54,438 bases of DNA, from positions 340,270-394,707 of the forward strand of contig NZ_JMIY01000007.1 of the NCBI RefSeq assembly GCF_000685155.1, written 5' to 3'. The stretch's first letter is position 1; each line of letters begins with the position of its first letter. This DNA comes from Candidatus Methanoperedens nitratireducens. GTDB taxonomy: Archaea; Halobacteriota; Methanosarcinia; Methanosarcinales; Methanoperedenaceae. Of this stretch, positions 180-15,264 are shown one piece after another. A program made the translations under genes and the position numbers. The notes beneath the pieces are model-generated. The model did not search any database. It was not told the origin of the DNA and saw only the letters and a list, made by a program, of their open reading frames with translations.

Positions 180-1151
180 ATGGGAAACACTAAATATTTA
201 ATGGTGCTTGCCATAGCTGCAGTTGGGCTTTTTGCGATGCCTAACCTGCTTGCTACATATGCAGGCACACACACGGTTGAATATAACGATCCCAACATAG
301 CTTCGGGATCAAGTGGTAAGGCTCTTGATTGCAGAGAATGCCACCAGTACATTTTTGATGCTGCGGCTTTAGCAAGTGCTAATGCTGGAAGTATATGGGT
401 CAAGCATGGTCAGGCAGCAGATGATACGAATTACACCACATATGTTGCATACTATGGAACTGACATGAATAACGACTCGGCAAACATCTCAGCATATCCA
501 GGATATAACCTCTTCTTCACTGCAAATGCACAGCAGTCAAGCGGTAAGGTTAAACCCGGCGATATACTGGGCCGAAACGCAACTGGTGCCTGGATAGTAG
601 TTAGCAATGCTGGAGGAGGCGTGATTGGCCAGGTTGCAACCGACAGTTACGGCGGCAAGGAATGGAGTGCTTGCTTGGTCTGCCACAGAGCAGCATACTT
701 CTACGGCGGCACGCACACCAGGGTTCAGGTAAGAGGCTGTACCAATGAATGGTGCCACGGTGCAAACACCACTGTTAGCAATCCTTCCACTGGCAGGGAC
801 GCCGGAGTATCGTACATGGCTGACATATCCAAGTTTGCCTCCTCAAAGGCTGCACAGACAGGCAAGCAGTTGAACAGGAGCGTGGATGCACACAACAAGT
901 GGTTCAGAGCTTCAGCAGAACAGCCGGACTATTACAAGAATGCTTTAACAGGGGAACAACTTAACCAGGACTACTATACCTGTATGGGGTGCCATACACA
1001 TGCAAACGTCCAGCTTAATATAGAGAAGTCGACAGGCTTCGATGCAAATCTGACATCTATGGGAACTGGCGCAATAACAGTAGATTATACAGTCAATACA
1101 ACCAACACAACAGTACTGACATCCACAAAGTATGGTGGAGCCTTCAAGTAA
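180..1151 (+). CDS. Secreted tetrahaem c-type cytochrome, candidate extracellular cytochrome nanowire subunit
   Basis: The 323-residue protein starts with a Sec signal peptide (residues 1 to about 28, ending LATYA). It carries four haem-attachment sites: CRECH (51-55), CLVCH (165-169), the unusual CX4CH site CTNEWCH (187-193) and CMGCH (268-272). At least five further His residues could serve as distal ligands, so all four haems could be bis-His. The mature chain is rich in Gly, Ala, Thr, Asn and Tyr with no membrane anchor, as expected of a structural extracellular protein. Archaeal extracellular cytochrome nanowires (Pyrobaculum, Archaeoglobus) are built from small secreted multihaem subunits, so a filament subunit is a reasonable inference, not proven. 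The start codon has a strong GAGGTG site. A signal peptidase and a membrane-anchored cytochrome follow, and a terminator after the gene would allow it to be expressed at a higher level than they are. Confidence 0.85.
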   Translation: MGNTKYLMVLAIAAVGLFAMPNLLATYAGTHTVEYNDPNIASGSSGKALDCRECHQYIFDAAALASANAGSIWVKHGQAADDTNYTTYVAYYGTDMNNDSANISAYPGYNLFFTANAQQSSGKVKPGDILGRNATGAWIVVSNAGGGVIGQVATDSYGGKEWSACLVCHRAAYFYGGTHTRVQVRGCTNEWCHGANTTVSNPSTGRDAGVSYMADISKFASSKAAQTGKQLNRSVDAHNKWFRASAEQPDYYKNALTGEQLNQDYYTCMGCHTHANVQLNIEKSTGFDANLTSMGTGAITVDYTVNTTNTTVLTSTKYGGAFK

Positions 1152-1160
1152 ATAATCAAT

Positions 1161-1192
1161 ATGAGGTTTTAAAACCTCATCTTTTCTTTTTT
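1161..1192 (+). terminator. Terminator after the tetrahaem cytochrome
   Basis: A perfect 20-bp palindrome, ATGAGGTTTTAAAACCTCAT, is followed by a pyrimidine/T-rich run. It lies 10 bp after the cytochrome stop and 51 bp before the signal peptidase gene, so it probably separates the abundant structural transcript from the genes that follow. Confidence 0.75.
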
Positions 1193-1242
1193 GACTTTGT
1201 GGGGAAAACATTTAAGCTTGAGCTTAAAATAAGATATTAAGC

Positions 1243-2031
1243 ATGGTACTTGACCAGATAATCCCGGAGAGCATAATATCCATATTGAAGGACCTGACAG
1301 AGACCAGGGCATTTTACTTAACAATGGTCTATCCTGCTGCAACATCAATAATTGCGGGGATCACATTCTATCTTCTAATAACAAGGCAGAAATTCACCTA
1401 TCCTGAGGCAGCTAAGGCAATAAAGTTACTAACTAAAACCTGGGAATACCTGAAGAGGAGACAAAACGAGGCAAAAATCAGATACATCTCTAAATCTATG
1501 GAAAAGAAAAGGATACTCCGCAACACTGTGTTCTTCGAGATGGGAAGCCTGGTGCTAAGCGGAACCTTAATAATCCTGATACTCACCAAGACTCTCTTCC
1601 TCGCCATGGTTACCACCCAGTCCATGGCACCTCTTATAATGCCCGGTGATCTCATTGTGACAGAGGCGCTGACTAAGAACATAACAGTGGGAGATGTTAT
1701 AGTCTTCATTCCACCGGATAACGATATGATGTACGTACACCGGGTCACCAGTGTCTCAGAGAATGAGATAAGGACAAAGGGGGATAACGCATTACCAGAT
1801 ACCTGGAGACTCACTAAAGATAACATAAAAGGTAAAGCAATATCTCTAAACCAGAAACCAATAGTTATAAAAGGCTTAGGCTACTACTTCATGCCTATCG
1901 ATAACCCTATCAGGGCTCAGGACCCTACCTTAAAAGCGATCAGAGGTAACATTCAAACGATGCAGACCTACGGGCCTTTGATATCAATAATGATAATCTT
2001 ATTTGTACTTCTGACCATGATTAAAAAATGA
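1243..2031 (+). CDS. Signal peptidase I, archaeal/SipW type (S26B)
   Basis: This 262-residue membrane protease should remove signal peptides outside the membrane. Ser127 lies in TTQSMAPLIMPGD (the SxMxP box), His166 in VHRV, and a GDN motif covers 180-182 with Asp181. The Ser/His pair, rather than Ser/Lys, is the archaeal/ER arrangement. The protein is longer than a minimal archaeal enzyme: it has an N-terminal membrane segment (about 26-47), a basic cytoplasmic stretch (50-93), a second segment (about 101-122) and a C-terminal segment (about 245-261). It overlaps the hexahaem gene by 4 nt (ATGA), so the two are probably co-translated. Its place between two exported cytochromes suggests it may be dedicated to their maturation. 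Confidence 0.85.
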   Translation: MVLDQIIPESIISILKDLTETRAFYLTMVYPAATSIIAGITFYLLITRQKFTYPEAAKAIKLLTKTWEYLKRRQNEAKIRYISKSMEKKRILRNTVFFEMGSLVLSGTLIILILTKTLFLAMVTTQSMAPLIMPGDLIVTEALTKNITVGDVIVFIPPDNDMMYVHRVTSVSENEIRTKGDNALPDTWRLTKDNIKGKAISLNQKPIVIKGLGYYFMPIDNPIRAQDPTLKAIRGNIQTMQTYGPLISIMIILFVLLTMIKK

Positions 2032-2684
2032 TAAAAAAAATAATCATCATGACCCTTCTCATCTTTATCTGGGCAGATATAGCTACCGCACCTTCGATGA
2101 GTGATTATGATTTTGGTAGAGACCACACAGGAAGGTATTGCGCTGAATGCCACACGATAGGGGCATGCTCAGGTAACTGCCATATCTCAGACGACAGCGT
2201 AAGCTATACAGGTGTCCATATTAACCCGACTATATGCAGCAGATGCCACGGGGAACAGGTCAAGAACCCGGATCTCCATGCAATCCACGGGAAAAAAAAC
2301 TGCACCACCTGTCACTCATCAGGAGGATGGAATTCCACGATTGCAAAGATACCTCCAGGTGGAAGCGGTGACTCAATGGTGATACCAAAAAGCAAAGAGT
2401 GCAGCTACTGCCACAGCTTCAATAACGATAGAAGACTCCACGGTATCCACAGGCCTTTTCTGGTTGAGGAAAAATGCCCCAGATGCCACGGCGACGTTTC
2501 GCCTTCAAGAGAGGAGATACTAAGAGTAACAGGCAAAGAACCCAGAGCATCAACTGCACTGCCTGATAGCCTGAACAGTGTAGTAAATCCTGAGATCAGG
2601 GAGGCGGTCATGGCGCCTATAAACGTCATTATAGATTTATTCAACAGTATTGCCAGTATCTGGATGAAGATACTTGGAGTATAA
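2028..2684 (+). CDS. Hexahaem c-type cytochrome with C-terminal hydrophobic anchor
   Basis: The 218-residue protein has an N-terminal signal segment (1 to about 21) and six haem sites: CAECH (38-42), the spaced CX3CH site CSGNCH (47-52), CSRCH (70-74), CTTCH (92-96), CSYCH (125-129) and CPRCH (150-154). Several extra His residues could act as axial ligands. The last 25 residues are hydrophobic to amphipathic and could anchor the protein at the membrane. The layout suits an electron carrier between the membrane and the tetrahaem protein encoded upstream. It is translationally coupled to the signal peptidase. The family was not identified beyond multihaem cytochrome c. Confidence 0.8.
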   Translation: MIKKIIIMTLLIFIWADIATAPSMSDYDFGRDHTGRYCAECHTIGACSGNCHISDDSVSYTGVHINPTICSRCHGEQVKNPDLHAIHGKKNCTTCHSSGGWNSTIAKIPPGGSGDSMVIPKSKECSYCHSFNNDRRLHGIHRPFLVEEKCPRCHGDVSPSREEILRVTGKEPRASTALPDSLNSVVNPEIREAVMAPINVIIDLFNSIASIWMKILGV

Positions 2685-2690
2685 CTATAA

Positions 2691-3398
2691 TTAACCTCCT
2701 TTATTTTTCCTGTACTTGCTTCGTCGAGACTCAATCCCGAATCTAACAAGGGCAGCCTCAAAATCAGAAAAACGATAGGGAAGGTTCGCCTGATCCCAGA
2801 GCTCTTCAAGCTCAAGGAGAATCTTCTTTTTCTCCTCATCATTCCCTCCCTCCAGTTCTGTAAGCCCTAAACTTCGGGCTGCAGTAATAACAGGATCACC
2901 GGGCAGCGGGTCGGCTTTTTTCCAGATTCCTCGAAGCTCACGGAGGAATATATTCACAGTTACATGACCCACACCTTTGAACTCCATGAGTTTTGATTCC
3001 AGATCCCGTGGGTCGCTTGCTTCTTCATGGAGTAAATTCAAATCGCCATTATACTGTTTGTTCAGCATCTGTGCAATACCAAGCAGTTTTGTCGCTGTCT
3101 TAAAGTCATAGCGCGCATACCCGCCTTCGTCCAGAATTTTTACAAGACTATCCCAGCCTGTACTGAGAATTGCTTCAGGCGTGAGCACATTTTGCTTCTC
3201 AAACTCATGGTATGTCTTTATTGCCGCATCCTTCCTTATCCTGGCGCCAAAAAGAATCGAGGCCAGGAACCACTTGAATATCTCTTCTGAGCTGCCTGAC
3301 TCTATATCAATGCCAAGTTCATCAGAGAACCTGCCGCCCCGCTCCTCCATGAGTCGCCTGAGGATTTCTCTCTTGCTCTCATGCTCATGTATACCCAT
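2691..3398 (-). CDS. HhH-GPD DNA glycosylase (endonuclease III-like, no Fe-S cluster)
   Basis: The 235-residue protein resembles the endonuclease III superfamily. A helix-hairpin-helix FKGVGHVTVNIFLRELRG lies at about 139-156 and is followed by the ADPLPGDP segment, where the family carries its catalytic Asp region. Two features differ from classic Nth: there is no C-terminal four-Cys iron-sulfur motif, and the position after GVG is His, not the lyase Lys. It may therefore be a monofunctional glycosylase acting on damaged bases, with substrate unknown. It is convergent with the cytochrome operon, with a 6-bp gap, and is probably not functionally linked to it. Confidence 0.7.
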   Translation of the reverse strand: MGIHEHESKREILRRLMEERGGRFSDELGIDIESGSSEEIFKWFLASILFGARIRKDAAIKTYHEFEKQNVLTPEAILSTGWDSLVKILDEGGYARYDFKTATKLLGIAQMLNKQYNGDLNLLHEEASDPRDLESKLMEFKGVGHVTVNIFLRELRGIWKKADPLPGDPVITAARSLGLTELEGGNDEEKKKILLELEELWDQANLPYRFSDFEAALVRFGIESRRSKYRKNKGG

Positions 3399-3491: not shown

Positions 3492-5036
3492 GTGGCACAG
3501 GATGCAGGTTCATACTTTAAATCAGGATACCACCAGCTTAAGTACGCTCCAGGACTCATAATTCCTTTCCTGATCTCTGAGGCATTGTTTTATGCATTAG
3601 CATGGACAATCATATTCACCTTTGCATTATTTGCATTACCTATTTTAGAAAAAGTTCTACCCATTATTGAGAAAAACCAGGATCTACTCTCTGAGATTAT
3701 GATGGATAACAGGGTTGGGAATGTTGTAAATTATACCGATCCGCGAATACAGGAATTAGAGAGAGAATTTTCCAGCCTGTTTCCTGAGATGGCATATATT
3801 TTAATCGTTTTTTTTGTTTTACTTTTTATATTTATGATCCTGTCCTTTGTTTTATATGCATGGGCAAGGGCAGGAACTATAGGATATATCTGGCAGGGGA
3901 TCACTACTTCACTGGATTTCAAAAACTTCCGGTATTATGCTAAACAAAATCTATATCGTATAGCAGGACTGTGGGTCTTAATAATCGTATTTTCTGTTAT
4001 ACTCTTTTTTATGCCGTTTTTCACGTTTGTAATCATTCCTTCACCTGTAAATGTTATTATATTTATACTCCTGATGCTGGTATTTTTTATTATATGGATC
4101 ATAGCAATGATATTATTGTTTTTTGCTGAGGAATCCATTGTAATCGAGAATAAAGGTATAATAGAGGCGATTAGACGAAGCAAAGAGATAGTCGCTGGAG
4201 ATATCGGATCTATCTTACTTTTCATTTTTATTCTGATCAGCGTTGTTGCAATATACACTATTACATCCGGTGTATTTAATCTGATAGCAGTGATATTTAA
4301 TTCCAGTCTTTCAGAATTTTTCAATCTTCTTTTCCTGGTTTTTCTGAATCCATTGCTGCAGTTAGCCAAGCTAAATTTCTTCCTCGATAAAACCGGGAGA
4401 ACCGTCAGGGTAATGGAAAAGGAGATTGAGTTTATTAAGGCAGCGAAAGAATTTATAATAGAGTCACCCCGGATTTTAGTTAATTTTGCTAAAAAGAATA
4501 TTAGCTATATTCTTCTATCTCTTTATTTTTATGTGATAGGATTCGGTATAGGGTATTACATAGGGAACTCGTTTTCTTTTCTAAGTGAAGGGTTTATGAA
4601 ACTCATATCAACAGGATATACAGAGAGCAGGTTAATCGGTCCTTACATTTCAATGCCATTCATTGACTTAGTATATTATTTCTCAAATAATAGCATGGTA
4701 GCATTAAATCAGGGGTTAAGTGGTCTCTTTTTTGTAATACCATCTGTACTGGGCATAGCAGTTACTGGAATTATAATTGGATTATTTTATGGAGTATTAC
4801 CTGCAGAAACAGCATCAGCTTTTATTGCTGTGCATGGCGTCTTTGAGATAACGGCATTCGTGATTGCTACAGCCGCTGGTATAAGGCTGGGAGTAAAATT
4901 CATAAAAGGTTTAGAAAACGAAAATGAGATTATCGATGAGGCCCTTAAGGTCGTGCTTGCTGCATTATTGTTGATAGGCATTGCTGCATTTCTTGAAGCT
5001 TTTATTAGCCCGATCGTGGCTTTATTAGTGGTCTAA
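3492..5036 (+). CDS. Large integral membrane protein of unknown function
   Basis: This 514-residue protein starts at GTG 3492, with GAGGT at 3484-3488. It has roughly nine or ten hydrophobic segments, including pairs at about 22-45 and 103-130. The segment AKEFIIESPRILVNFAKKN resembles the beginning SYFKSGYHQLKYAPGLI, hinting at two related halves (an internal duplication of the type seen in archaeal DUF7847-like proteins). No catalytic motif or transporter signature was recognised. It stands 23 bp upstream of the lipoate ligase and may be cotranscribed with it. Confidence 0.6.
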   Translation: MAQDAGSYFKSGYHQLKYAPGLIIPFLISEALFYALAWTIIFTFALFALPILEKVLPIIEKNQDLLSEIMMDNRVGNVVNYTDPRIQELEREFSSLFPEMAYILIVFFVLLFIFMILSFVLYAWARAGTIGYIWQGITTSLDFKNFRYYAKQNLYRIAGLWVLIIVFSVILFFMPFFTFVIIPSPVNVIIFILLMLVFFIIWIIAMILLFFAEESIVIENKGIIEAIRRSKEIVAGDIGSILLFIFILISVVAIYTITSGVFNLIAVIFNSSLSEFFNLLFLVFLNPLLQLAKLNFFLDKTGRTVRVMEKEIEFIKAAKEFIIESPRILVNFAKKNISYILLSLYFYVIGFGIGYYIGNSFSFLSEGFMKLISTGYTESRLIGPYISMPFIDLVYYFSNNSMVALNQGLSGLFFVIPSVLGIAVTGIIIGLFYGVLPAETASAFIAVHGVFEITAFVIATAAGIRLGVKFIKGLENENEIIDEALKVVLAALLLIGIAAFLEAFISPIVALLVV

Positions 5037-11148: not shown

Positions 11149-14100
11149 ATGGGCAATATGCGGATTTTAAGCAAATTACTATCTATCCTGCTTATAATAA
11201 TCCTCATTACAGCCCCAATAGGCAGTGCTCTATCTGCCGGATATACCCGGAATGATAATGACGAAAAACCGCATAAGAGTCTAAAAGACCATCTGAGCTC
11301 GCTTCAGCCTGATCCTGCCTCTCCTTTGACCTTGAAGCAGCAGGCATACAGGAACCTCATATCGATAGCGCCTCCTGAAAATAAAAACAACAAAGACATA
11401 ATCAAAAAACTGGATAACGCTAAACTCTACATAACAAAAAGTATTGACAGCGGATTATGGTACGATAAAAATCATCTAAAACCTGTGCAGAAGCCAGATG
11501 ATGACAGCGCAGATAAGGACGAAGATGACGAGGAGCCTGAATTTGATATTAAGACGACTGTATTCAAATCTGAGAAGACAGCAGCCCAGAACATCCTGGA
11601 GGTTATTTCAAAGAACAAAGAAAATGCCACTTACAATGATGTACTTATAGAAGCCCTCATAAATCTCGTACAGGCTGACAGGAACATAGCGCAGACGGCT
11701 ATCACGGACGCGCAGCGCGCAGCTTCATACCATGATGCTTACCCGCAAAATAATGAAAAAGAAAAGCACAGGGATCTTGAAAAGGCACAAAAAGAGTTCG
11801 ACAAAGCTATTGAGAAGATACAGAAAGGCGAGCCCATCGATGCAATCGAGCATTTTGAAAAAGCATGGAAGTACGCTACTGCTGAACTTCTCAGGCTGGA
11901 TGAGGCAACAACTCCTGTGATCGTATTTGATTCAATTCACAGCAGGTATGTAAACCGCACGAATATAATCCTATCAGGGCATGTGGAGGATGCAGCGGTC
12001 TATACAATACCTGACATTACCCTTATGGTAAACGGCGTTTCCTCCACGCTTAACCTGACAGATGGCATGTTCCAATTAACCCTGATACTGAATGAAGGTG
12101 AAAACTACATTAATGCGACCACTATTGATCACTTCGGCAATACAGGTACAAATAACATTACCCTTATTGCGGATACTACCCCGCCTGAAGTGGCAATCAT
12201 CTCGCCTGTGAACAGAAGCTTAGTCAGAAGTATAATCAACATAGCTGCGGATATTTATGATCTCAACCTTGCAAATACCACCCTTGCTATTAACGGCATA
12301 TTCGTCTCAAATAATTACTCGTATGCCTGGAATACCACAGGCTATCAAGACGGGTGGTACAGGATAACGGCAAATGCTATGGATCTGGCAGGGAACGCGG
12401 CGCAGAAGGAGGTATGGGTGGAAGTGGATAATACGCCGCCTATATTGATAGTTAATGAACTTACTGAAAATCCAACACTTGACAATCCAGAGTATTCATT
12501 ATTTATCCTGACTGACATAGGCGCTAATGTAACAGTTAATGGACAACCCATAAGCCTCACGGATGGCTCAACCATATACGACAGAAATATTACAGAAGGT
12601 CGTAATTCTTTTGAAATTACTGCTTCAGACACCATCGGAAATCTAGCTACATGGAATATTACCCGACTTATAGATTCTGATTCACTGCCGGATTACTATG
12701 AGATAAACGTAACAGGAACCGATCCTCTGAACGGGGATTCAGATTCCTCTATAACTGCTGTGAATGAAGCTCACAACGGTATCCCTGACGATAAAGAGGA
12801 TTTCGATGGAGATTTATTACCTAACAATATTGAAATGAGGCTTGGAACTAATCCCTTCTCAGATGATACTGATGGGGATGGACTTGTCGATTTGTTCGAA
12901 GTATATTTCTCAGGAACAAACCCAACTATTGTTGATACAGACGGCGATGGCATTAAAGACGGAGATGAAGATATCGATCTGGATGGTCTGACCAATCTCG
13001 AAGAGCAAAATTTCGGGACAAATCCTGATGATAGAGATACTGATGGTGATAATCTGTTTGATGGGAAAGAAATCGCTCTAGGAACAAATCCACTTAATCC
13101 AGATTCTGATGGTGACGGACTCCAAGATGGCATGGAGGTAGATACAGGAAGTAACCCTCTTTTGAAAGATTCTGATCAGGACGGCATTCCAGATGGAAAA
13201 GAGACCATTACCCAGGAAATAGTAAGAGGAGAGGTAAATTTAACTATAACAGGCGAAGGAGAGATTTTCAACACTCTCAGGGTTTATAATCTTTCAAGAC
13301 TTGAGGTGTTTTCAGGAATGTCTGGAAACATTGGCAAAGTCTTTGAAATTAGAACAAATTCTTCATTTGAATCTGCCACAATAAAGATACCTTACGATGA
13401 ATCTGCTCTTGGTGATATACCTGAAAACGATTTAAGGATTTTCACGGTAAATGAGACCACCCATAGGGTTGATTTCCTCCCTACAATTGTAAACACGACA
13501 AATAACTATGTTCAGGCCACTACAAATCACTTCAGCTTTTATGGAGTAGCAGGGTATACGAAGTGGTTAACCACATGGAGTTCTGGTAGCAATCCCACGA
13601 CCCCAGAATTCAAGATGGGTGATAAAATAAATATCAAAGCAATGGTTCACAATACAGGTGACGCCTCAGTCACAAGCAGTGTCCCCGTCTATTTCTACGA
13701 AGGCGATCCAGATGCCGGAGGAAATTACATTGGCAGTGCCACGATAACTGGCGGCATCGCCCAGGGTAGTTCAAAAGTTGCTATACTCTACGGGTATGCC
13801 ATTAAATCTTCCTCAATTGATATTTATGTCAAAGTTGATCCGCTGAACAGCATAGCCGAAAAAAGTGAATTGAACAACAAGGCATTTAAGACACTAAGTA
13901 TCGGTCCGCAGAATTTCGACTCGGATGGCGATGGTCTCACTGACTGGGATGAGGTTAACGGTATGAGAACATACCTTGGAATAATCAAAACCGATCCGTA
14001 TAACAACGATACCGATGGCGATGGATTAACAGATGGGATTGAGATGGGAATGAGATTCACTGATTTCTATCTGTTATACTCCAACCCGAATATAAAAGAT

Positions 14101-15264
14101 AGCGATAATGATGGTCTCAACGACTATGAAGAGTATTCCCTGAACACTGAACCGCTATTCGATAAAGACTCTGACAATGACGGTCTGTGGGATGGAGAAG
14201 AGGTTCATGTAACAAAAACAAGTCCTACGAGTAGAGATACAGATGGAGATGGTATCTGGGACGGAACCGAATATCTCTATTCCCTTGGGTACACACCGCA
14301 GAATAATAAAATCTTTATCAACGGCAACGCAAACAATCTGCTTCCAGCAGGTTCAGAAGCGCCAGTAACGGTTGAAGATATAGATATGGATTGGCGGCCT
14401 ACCCTTGAGATGGCTTATAGCCTTGGGTTTGAGGGTGTGAAGCTATTCTGTCTAGGAGATTTCGCTGAAGGGGAGATCACTGTAAGCGGAGCTATTGATA
14501 CGGGTTTATGTGCAGTCGATGTTGGCGCTATAATTATTCCGGCAGACGGTCCGTTTGGAGAGGCTGCTATTACCTCGGTAAAGACAGCCCGATTTATCCA
14601 CGGAGTTAAGACATGGTTCAATTTCCAGAGGGTTCCAAATGTTTTATACAAGCTTCAAAAGGCTAACAAAGCCCTGCTCAGGTTCAAATATGTTGTAAAA
14701 GGCAAAACAGAATCTATATCAAAGGAACTTTCAAAAGGAGCAATTCAAGGAGCTTCGGATTTGGGTATAATCTGGCAGAAGGGAGCACATGGTGAAATAT
14801 TGGATGCCTACGGCAACCTGCTGAAGAATTACGCTGATGATAGCGGCACTATCTACTATAAGATCAGGGAACTTGCCAGTAAAAAAGTTCTCGTCAAAGA
14901 TATGGAACGGGTTTACGAGAATGGAGGCGACCTGAAAAAGACGATGAATGTTGTTGAGAGAACTGAGGATGGCAAGAGCGTTATAAGATGGCTGGAAGAA
15001 GGGACTGATACCTCTGGATGGCTTCATATACTAAAGAAACATATTACAGGAGAAATTCCAGGTGGCTCAAAATTCCCCAGTTCGATGAACGTGGATCAAG
15101 TTAAAGAATTAATATACAATTCTATTAAGAAAGGAACTAAGACGGAAACAACAGATATAACAGGACGAAAAACTATTTTATATGAGTATATTGATGAGAT
15201 GGGGCTTAAGGTTAAAACAATTGTAGGAGATAATGGGTATATAGTAACATCTTATCCTATATAG
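11149..15264 (+). CDS. Secreted polymorphic toxin: Ig-like/TSP3/CARDB scaffold with C-terminal BECR-like toxin tip
   Basis: This 1371-residue protein is the one intact scaffold of the locus. It has a signal peptide (1 to about 29), a Lys/Glu-rich helical part with an acidic run (about 120-136), and Ig-like repeats (about 254-508). Thrombospondin type-3 DxDxDGxxD calcium repeats follow (about 509-685), then a beta-sandwich, a CARDB domain (about 812-919) and a second set of TSP3 repeats (about 924-1050). A hydrophobic pre-toxin region (about 1098-1150) precedes a linker, ELSKGAIQGASDLGIIWQKG (about 1193-1212). The tip (about 1285-1371) carries SGWLHILKKH (Trp1291, His1293, His1298) and ends NGYIVTSYPI, a pattern like BECR/EndoU-type RNase toxins. 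The putative immunity gene starts 8 bp downstream. Toxicity and RNase activity are inferred from architecture. Confidence 0.8.
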   Translation: MGNMRILSKLLSILLIIILITAPIGSALSAGYTRNDNDEKPHKSLKDHLSSLQPDPASPLTLKQQAYRNLISIAPPENKNNKDIIKKLDNAKLYITKSIDSGLWYDKNHLKPVQKPDDDSADKDEDDEEPEFDIKTTVFKSEKTAAQNILEVISKNKENATYNDVLIEALINLVQADRNIAQTAITDAQRAASYHDAYPQNNEKEKHRDLEKAQKEFDKAIEKIQKGEPIDAIEHFEKAWKYATAELLRLDEATTPVIVFDSIHSRYVNRTNIILSGHVEDAAVYTIPDITLMVNGVSSTLNLTDGMFQLTLILNEGENYINATTIDHFGNTGTNNITLIADTTPPEVAIISPVNRSLVRSIINIAADIYDLNLANTTLAINGIFVSNNYSYAWNTTGYQDGWYRITANAMDLAGNAAQKEVWVEVDNTPPILIVNELTENPTLDNPEYSLFILTDIGANVTVNGQPISLTDGSTIYDRNITEGRNSFEITASDTIGNLATWNITRLIDSDSLPDYYEINVTGTDPLNGDSDSSITAVNEAHNGIPDDKEDFDGDLLPNNIEMRLGTNPFSDDTDGDGLVDLFEVYFSGTNPTIVDTDGDGIKDGDEDIDLDGLTNLEEQNFGTNPDDRDTDGDNLFDGKEIALGTNPLNPDSDGDGLQDGMEVDTGSNPLLKDSDQDGIPDGKETITQEIVRGEVNLTITGEGEIFNTLRVYNLSRLEVFSGMSGNIGKVFEIRTNSSFESATIKIPYDESALGDIPENDLRIFTVNETTHRVDFLPTIVNTTNNYVQATTNHFSFYGVAGYTKWLTTWSSGSNPTTPEFKMGDKINIKAMVHNTGDASVTSSVPVYFYEGDPDAGGNYIGSATITGGIAQGSSKVAILYGYAIKSSSIDIYVKVDPLNSIAEKSELNNKAFKTLSIGPQNFDSDGDGLTDWDEVNGMRTYLGIIKTDPYNNDTDGDGLTDGIEMGMRFTDFYLLYSNPNIKDSDNDGLNDYEEYSLNTEPLFDKDSDNDGLWDGEEVHVTKTSPTSRDTDGDGIWDGTEYLYSLGYTPQNNKIFINGNANNLLPAGSEAPVTVEDIDMDWRPTLEMAYSLGFEGVKLFCLGDFAEGEITVSGAIDTGLCAVDVGAIIIPADGPFGEAAITSVKTARFIHGVKTWFNFQRVPNVLYKLQKANKALLRFKYVVKGKTESISKELSKGAIQGASDLGIIWQKGAHGEILDAYGNLLKNYADDSGTIYYKIRELASKKVLVKDMERVYENGGDLKKTMNVVERTEDGKSVIRWLEEGTDTSGWLHILKKHITGEIPGGSKFPSSMNVDQVKELIYNSIKKGTKTETTDITGRKTILYEYIDEMGLKVKTIVGDNGYIVTSYPI
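14726..14789 (+). repeat. Toxin-tip anchor repeat, in the intact scaffold
   Basis: These 64 bp match 15831-15894 at about 59 positions and encode LSKGAIQGASDLGIIWQKGA at the scaffold/tip boundary. The copy outside the scaffold directly precedes a spare toxin tip in the same reading frame. A crossover here would therefore replace the native tip plus its immunity gene with the downstream tip. Confidence 0.75.

Follow-up and report, generated by a model that had tools for sequence, protein, structure and literature searches.

We favour, with moderate confidence, the reading that three genes near the start of the analysed DNA form a divergent, AvECN-type variant of the archaeal extracellular cytochrome nanowire (ECN) module that includes a signal peptidase of its own and a partner cytochrome. 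The DNA, called the window below, is a stretch of 54,438 nucleotides of Candidatus Methanoperedens nitratireducens (G000:C7:340270-394707), and the three genes lie at positions 180-2684. The basis of this reading is the homology of the encoded proteins, the conservation of haem sites and histidines, the association of the genes, the covariation of peptidase and substrate, and the recurrence of a hairpin after the subunit gene.

For the processing, assembly and membrane wiring of archaeal cytochrome nanowires, this locus and those related to it point to two partners that recur: a cytochrome of five or six haems and a specific signal peptidase. The precursor motif predicts the mature N-terminus of nanowire-type subunits. 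In the methane-oxidising Methanoperedens, such a module bears on the route by which electrons from methane leave the cell.

Gene arrangement of the locus

The open reading frames were verified at 180-1151 (tetrahaem cytochrome, 323 aa), 1243-2031 (signal peptidase, 262 aa) and 2028-2684 (hexahaem cytochrome, 218 aa), all on the + strand. The frames of peptidase and hexahaem cytochrome overlap by 4 bases (ATGA), so that the term "coupled", used for them in the original prediction, is fair. The order tetrahaem - peptidase - hexahaem is repeated in G001 (Mnv1) and G002, and G026 contains the reordered set tetrahaem - hexahaem - peptidase - tetrahaem. Because of this recurrence the triad is not regarded as a chance arrangement. 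The neighbourhoods around the triads differ among these three genomes.

Several other genes were observed around the triad. Upstream of the window lies a multihaem cluster of ~40 kb (C7:300528-335412; L033, L034), containing GQH-type pentahaems, proteins of 11-13 haems, a second peptidase, a second CX4CH tetrahaem (C7:327842-328663), an AvECN-like tetrahaem gene (C7:306084) and two giant cytochromes of 3539 aa (8 haems) and 2106 aa (5 haems), both rich in carboxypeptidase-regulatory-like and Ig-like domains. An HTH_20-type regulator located 5' of the triad is kept in both genomes compared (G000:C7:339554-339913 and L067:6359-6742) and is a possible regulator of the module. A 481-aa protein with ~10 predicted membrane segments and without a Pfam match (L034:17662-19107, - strand) is also kept upstream of the G002 triad. 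Outside the module, a weakly HhH-GPD glycosylase-like protein (window 2691-3398, - strand) and a SpoIIM-domain membrane protein (3492-5036, + strand) are syntenic with L067. Window positions 11149-15264 encode a 1371-aa secreted protein with a hydrophobic start and many calcium-binding-like DxDxDG repeats.

Between the subunit gene and the next gene, a perfect 20-base palindrome, ATGAGGTTTTAAAACCTCAT (1161-1180), is followed by a T-rich pyrimidine tract, and together they make up a hairpin at a conserved position (1161-1192, + strand). A hairpin with a pyrimidine tract was found after the subunit gene at 8 sampled loci (z -1.5 to -5.4); only the window and Mnv1 share its exact sequence. No clear hairpin is present at a ninth junction, which follows the AvECN-like gene of the upstream cluster (C7:306668). 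The element had been predicted as a strong terminator; the palindrome and the T-rich tract are present, but the folding energy is not exceptional (z -1.5). Termination in archaea depends mainly on U-tracts, and for this reason a bacterial-type terminator was not accepted for 1161-1180. The hairpin may act in termination or protect the 3' end, and a role in setting the expression ratio is plausible.

The tetrahaem protein and its kinship with AvECN

The tetrahaem c-type cytochrome precursor carries a predicted signal peptide (180-254) with a conserved Pro21. Its cleavage is predicted between A25 and T26, with Ala at P1 and the aromatic Tyr27 at P2', following a motif drawn from 76 distinct precursors. 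The haem sites are CRECH (330-344), CLVCH (672-686), CTNEWCH (738-758), which is the CX4CH site at haem 3, and CMGCH (981-995), the last followed by THANV (CHTY/CHTH in the AvECN family). No second membrane segment was found, and the protein has the signal peptide, the CX4CH site and the lack of an anchor that had been claimed for it.

Full-length homologues with this pattern of three CX2CH sites and one CX4CH site number 16-23, nearly all in Methanoperedenaceae. Four extra histidines are conserved among them: His31 (270-272), placed at residue 6 of the predicted mature N-terminus, His76 (405-407) and His238 (891-893) are invariant, and His179 (714-716) is nearly so. These four residues could supply the distal ligands of all four haems. 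The closest named tetrahaem relatives are Candidatus Methanoperedens records with 67% and 40% identity. Beyond Methanoperedenaceae, members of the CX4CH family are rare, with a presence in 4 of ~390 sampled Halobacteriota genomes besides its own; two scans of IMG/VR viral and Borg contigs, and plasmid records, gave no relatives.

AvECN (F2KMU8, PDB 8E5G) is the extracellular cytochrome nanowire of Archaeoglobus veneficus solved by cryo-EM (Baquero et al. 2023, Cell, as cited in PMC12954529, PMC11936953 and PMC11176372). A PDB search with the window tetrahaem as a single sequence found nothing, and profiles alone gave matches. The profile of 16 tetrahaem homologues, searched against the whole PDB, matched 8E5G at E=1.4e-8; this match shows composition bias and lies mainly in the signal peptide and at haem 1. 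The sister family with four CX2CH sites and the same signal motif gave a full-length match to 8E5G (E=4.7e-44). Since the CX4CH match rested mostly on the signal peptide and haem 1, these were cut out before realigning. The remaining profile still aligned with Archaeoglobi-type AvECN homologues over 127 columns in a profile-profile comparison (probability 97%, E 5e-11, score 77), and two other small multihaem families used as controls scored 24-26. This alignment matches haem 2 with haem 2 and haem 4 with haem 4, and it places the CX4CH site over the CX2CH site of haem 3, with two residues added. The two histidines between the haem sites fall on EAH positions of AvECN, His179 on EAH and His238 on EAHQTF. 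Such a haem-for-haem correspondence, scoring above the controls, places the window tetrahaem, as judged from sequence, as a divergent member of the AvECN family with the same order of putative ligand histidines and haems. The kinship with archaeal nanowire subunits suggested in the original prediction is thereby borne out.

AvECN itself matched proteins in 61 of the 393 sampled Halobacteriota genomes. Its all-CX2CH property is absent from the window protein; this property is a trait of AvECN itself and is not known as obligatory for the family. PcECN (Pyrobaculum, 8E5F), OmcS, OmcE and OmcZ were not among the PDB matches of either profile, and a direct relation to PcECN was rejected because no profile match appeared. 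AlphaFold gave poor models for the window tetrahaem (pLDDT 40) and for a compact paralogue (23 sequences; pLDDT 62, pTM 0.64). A Foldseek search of the PDB with the paralogue model returned no meaningful match and did not return 8E5G; no claim on the fold is therefore made.

It is less probable, though a serious alternative, that the tetrahaem does not polymerise or plays a minor part, for example as a soluble or S-layer-associated electron shuttle, or as a cap or adaptor that joins an AvECN-type filament, encoded at another place in the genome, to other cytochromes. CX4CH genes often adjoin AvECN-type genes (G025, G022, G015, G027, G011, G001:C233 and G059/G098), and the genome studied here also has the AvECN-like gene in the upstream cluster. 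Because they lie beside an AvECN-type gene in several genomes, the CX4CH proteins may have an accessory role instead of forming the main subunit. In all four triads of the window type (G000, G001, G002, G026), however, the tetrahaems are of the CX4CH kind only, which leaves these loci without an AvECN-type partner close by, and the pattern of haems and ligands is the same as in AvECN. Both observations speak against this alternative.

The signal peptidase and its linkage to nanowire-type genes

The second gene encodes an intact archaeal/ER-type signal peptidase I (S26B) with Ser127-His166-Asp181 in the active-site motifs QSMAP, VHR and GDN, an extra N-terminal segment and a C-terminal transmembrane segment. 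It scores 58 bits against TIGR02228 (sigpep_I_arch, cut-off 51.85) and is also above the cut-off of PF10502; NCBIfam and Pfam gave no match to the SipW signal-domain or TasA-CalY models.

Of the 96 peptidase genes found in 34 Methanoperedenaceae genomes, 33 have an ECN-type gene at a distance of up to 5 kb, in most cases 200-1200 bases. The same linkage was found in Archaeoglobaceae (G057, G076 and G165, and at 8 kb in G067), the family being assigned through the label f8 that these genomes share with G108, and beyond them in f9 (G091, G048, G146, G097), f4 (G419) and f20 (G059, G098). In the two f20 genomes the genes form an operon of the order AvECN-type - peptidase - CX4CH type. A signal peptidase beside multihaem genes of ANME archaea, assigned to signal cleavage, had been reported in 2022 (PMC9012536). 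A dedicated peptidase within a cytochrome cluster had been called unusual in the original prediction; this view was rejected because the linkage recurs across Halobacteriota and had in part been reported before.

Two further observations concern the surroundings of linked peptidases. A protein of ~255 aa with six predicted membrane segments lies beside the ECN-linked peptidases of four Archaeoglobaceae (L111:5843-6619, L113:11556-12320, L114:4864-5625, L115:15966-16739) and may be a further part of the module. In Mnv1, a second and different signal peptidase directly 3' of the triad (L066:6044-6769) falls on a long branch with the clade of the non-aromatic motif described below.

Another explanation is that the enzyme is a general export peptidase placed in the cluster by happenstance and not tied to the tetrahaem in particular. 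Enzymes of this kind are commonplace and essential, and the orthologue is unlinked to ECN genes in some genomes, among them A. veneficus (G108, identified by a 100% match to AvECN), in which no peptidase adjoins AvECN and the orthologue of the linked Archaeoglobi peptidases is found elsewhere (C1:1646550). This explanation is nevertheless unlikely, as two generic peptidases are already present elsewhere in the genome of the window. A tree built from 62 sequences groups the generic peptidases in one clade of 13 (support 100/100), and all ECN-linked peptidases fall outside it. A non-generic peptidase is present in 29 of 29 ECN-bearing Methanoperedenaceae genomes, classed by tree placement where the sequence was included and otherwise by frame length and model coverage. 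The five Methanoperedenaceae genomes without ECN have generic peptidases only (classed by tree placement, one match by active-site motif). The chance of this split is ~4e-6 if genomes are independent; as they are related, the co-occurrence is taken as supportive only. The linked peptidases thus form separate lineages in the tree, are missing from genomes that lack ECNs, and also track the motif of their substrates, which favours a dedicated enzyme.

The predicted signal-cleavage motif and its covariation with the peptidase

Alignment of the 76 precursors on the first His gave the pattern P(-10), T/V/I(-8), S/A(-6), aromatic(-4), G(-2), H(0), with an aromatic residue at -4 in 66 of the 76. Under the -3,-1 rule for signal cleavage, the cut would fall after S/A; the aromatic residue would then be P2' and the His would be mature residue 6. 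For AvECN the motif predicts a cut at S26|LFLGQH, with Leu27 as the first mature residue and the histidine at His32, and for the window tetrahaem a mature chain beginning TYAGTH. The precursors without the aromatic residue are of the V-G-x-G-Q-H and S-Y-S-G-S-M-H types; they accompany one clade of peptidases, either as neighbours or within one genome. In these genomes both the CX4CH and the CX2CH subunits have switched motif. Window-type peptidases are paired with A|[TS][FY]xx[TSG]H, and G026 contains two clusters with two peptidases, each with its own motif; G012 likewise.

Distances between peptidases and between signal motifs are correlated (Mantel r 0.79, p 5e-5), and the nearest peptidase neighbours are of the same motif class in 22 of 22 cases, against 8.2 expected. 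Such tracking is as expected for dedicated processing enzymes, and the peptidase probably trims exactly the neighbouring tetrahaem subunit. Shared descent of whole clusters confounds the covariation, for which co-inheritance is an alternative cause.

The hexahaem partner cytochrome

The third gene encodes a hexahaem cytochrome with five CX2CH sites and one CX3CH site (CSGNCH, 2166-2183), at which relatives have CX3CH or CX4CH. The protein starts with a signal peptide, and its C-terminal tail is hydrophobic. The original prediction of an anchored hexahaem protein holds for the tail and the CX3CH site, and the anchor is doubtful: the tail of the Mnv1 orthologue falls below the hydropathy threshold of 1.3, and in eight relatives the C-terminus forms an amphipathic helix (hydrophobic moment 0.5-0.64), the helix at 2610-2681 being common to the partner family. 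Since the tail is amphipathic and not a typical transmembrane helix, the proposal of a transmembrane membrane anchor was downgraded.

Homology links the family of the window hexahaem to the pentahaem gene located two genes downstream of AvECN in A. veneficus (probability 98.7%, score 105). Also homologous are the partners of five or six haems in the AvECN-type clusters of Methanoperedens and the Archaeoglobaceae hexahaems beside ECN-linked peptidases. Pairs within this family gave probabilities of 98.5-99.9% and scores of 100-196, against 41-53 for unrelated cytochromes, and its Methanoperedens and Archaeoglobi members have a C-terminal hydrophobic or amphipathic segment. That this family occurs next to an established nanowire gene is the strongest argument for the triad being a nanowire-type unit.

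The position of the large multihaem cluster immediately upstream of the window might suggest that the hexahaem is the functional core, a conduit at the membrane surface, with the tetrahaem as a periplasmic carrier to other acceptors in that cluster. We consider this unlikely, since the partner family accompanies ECN genes from Archaeoglobus to Methanoperedens and its role is therefore tied to ECN-type proteins. As a partner of the nanowire-type subunit, the hexahaem probably links that subunit to the cell surface and would act as an electron feeder.

A proposed model of the module

In the proposed model, the tetrahaem would be exported by Sec, and the adjacent ER-type peptidase, specialised for the subunit family, would cut between [A/S] and x-[F/Y]-x-G-x-H. 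The freed N-terminus would present a His at about residue 6 as a distal haem ligand, to its own or to the next subunit. The resulting subunit, with four bis-His haems, would probably polymerise into a haem-stacked filament or chain. The amphipathic helix at the C-terminus of the hexahaem or pentahaem partner would keep this protein on the membrane surface, where it would take up electrons from the membrane and deliver them to the base of the filament. The hairpin would probably cause more subunit to be made than peptidase and partner. The parts of this model that we infer are the cleavage site, the specificity of the peptidase, polymerisation, the electron route and the expression ratio. Against it stand the facts that a filament is known for no CX4CH member, that the AlphaFold models are poor, and that A. 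veneficus has no peptidase next to AvECN.

More tentative, and somewhat short of probable, is the wider proposal that dedicated ER-type peptidases mature archaeal nanowires and have co-evolved with each subunit lineage, as an independent parallel to SipW-TasA, the cut placing an interface or ligand His at mature residue 6 and so acting as a polymerisation switch. In a limited literature search, with the original AvECN structure paper outside it, no report was found that tied peptidase lineages to ECN subunits or described the partner cytochrome beside AvECN or the CX4CH branch.

Comparison with known systems

Like AvECN, the window protein is a tetrahaem with a signal-peptide motif of the kind ending in LFxGQH, the same order of distal histidines and haem sites, and a companion penta- or hexahaem gene nearby. 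It differs in its CX4CH haem 3, in a long insert between haems 1 and 2, and in having ~17% identity to AvECN after haem 1; its peptidase is adjacent whereas that of A. veneficus is unlinked. AvECN homologues in Methanoperedens were reported previously (PMC12246660, PMC11176372). Those with four CX2CH sites, such as the ECN of BLZ2 (PMC12246660), and MmcX of Met12 (PMC11176372) belong to the same superfamily, share the signal motif and in many cases have a similar peptidase in their cluster, but the four-CX2CH proteins analysed here are nearer to AvECN, and the window protein represents a separate CX4CH branch.

In the CcmF2 / ANME MHC-B clusters (Chadwick et al. 2022, PMC9012536), an archaeal signal peptidase also lies in a multihaem cluster, with a proposed role in signal processing. 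Giant S-layer cytochromes and CcmF2 accompany it there, while nanowire-type tetrahaems and covariation with the substrate motif were found here. The OmcZ-OzpA nanowire clusters of Methanoperedens and Borgs (PMC10874420, PMC11208441) likewise encode a nanowire subunit alongside its own processing protease; OmcZ, however, is an octahaem protein, and OzpA is a serine protease of the subtilisin type.

In Bacillus, TasA has an aromatic P2' residue and is cut by the dedicated archaeal-type peptidase SipW (PMC10269814). The window locus resembles SipW-TasA in having an ER-type peptidase adjoining the gene of a secreted subunit and a link between peptidase and putative fibre subunit; an aromatic P2' residue, Tyr27 in the window protein, is predicted. 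It differs in that the putative substrate is a multihaem cytochrome rather than TasA/CalY and that the peptidase lacks a match to the SipW signal domain.
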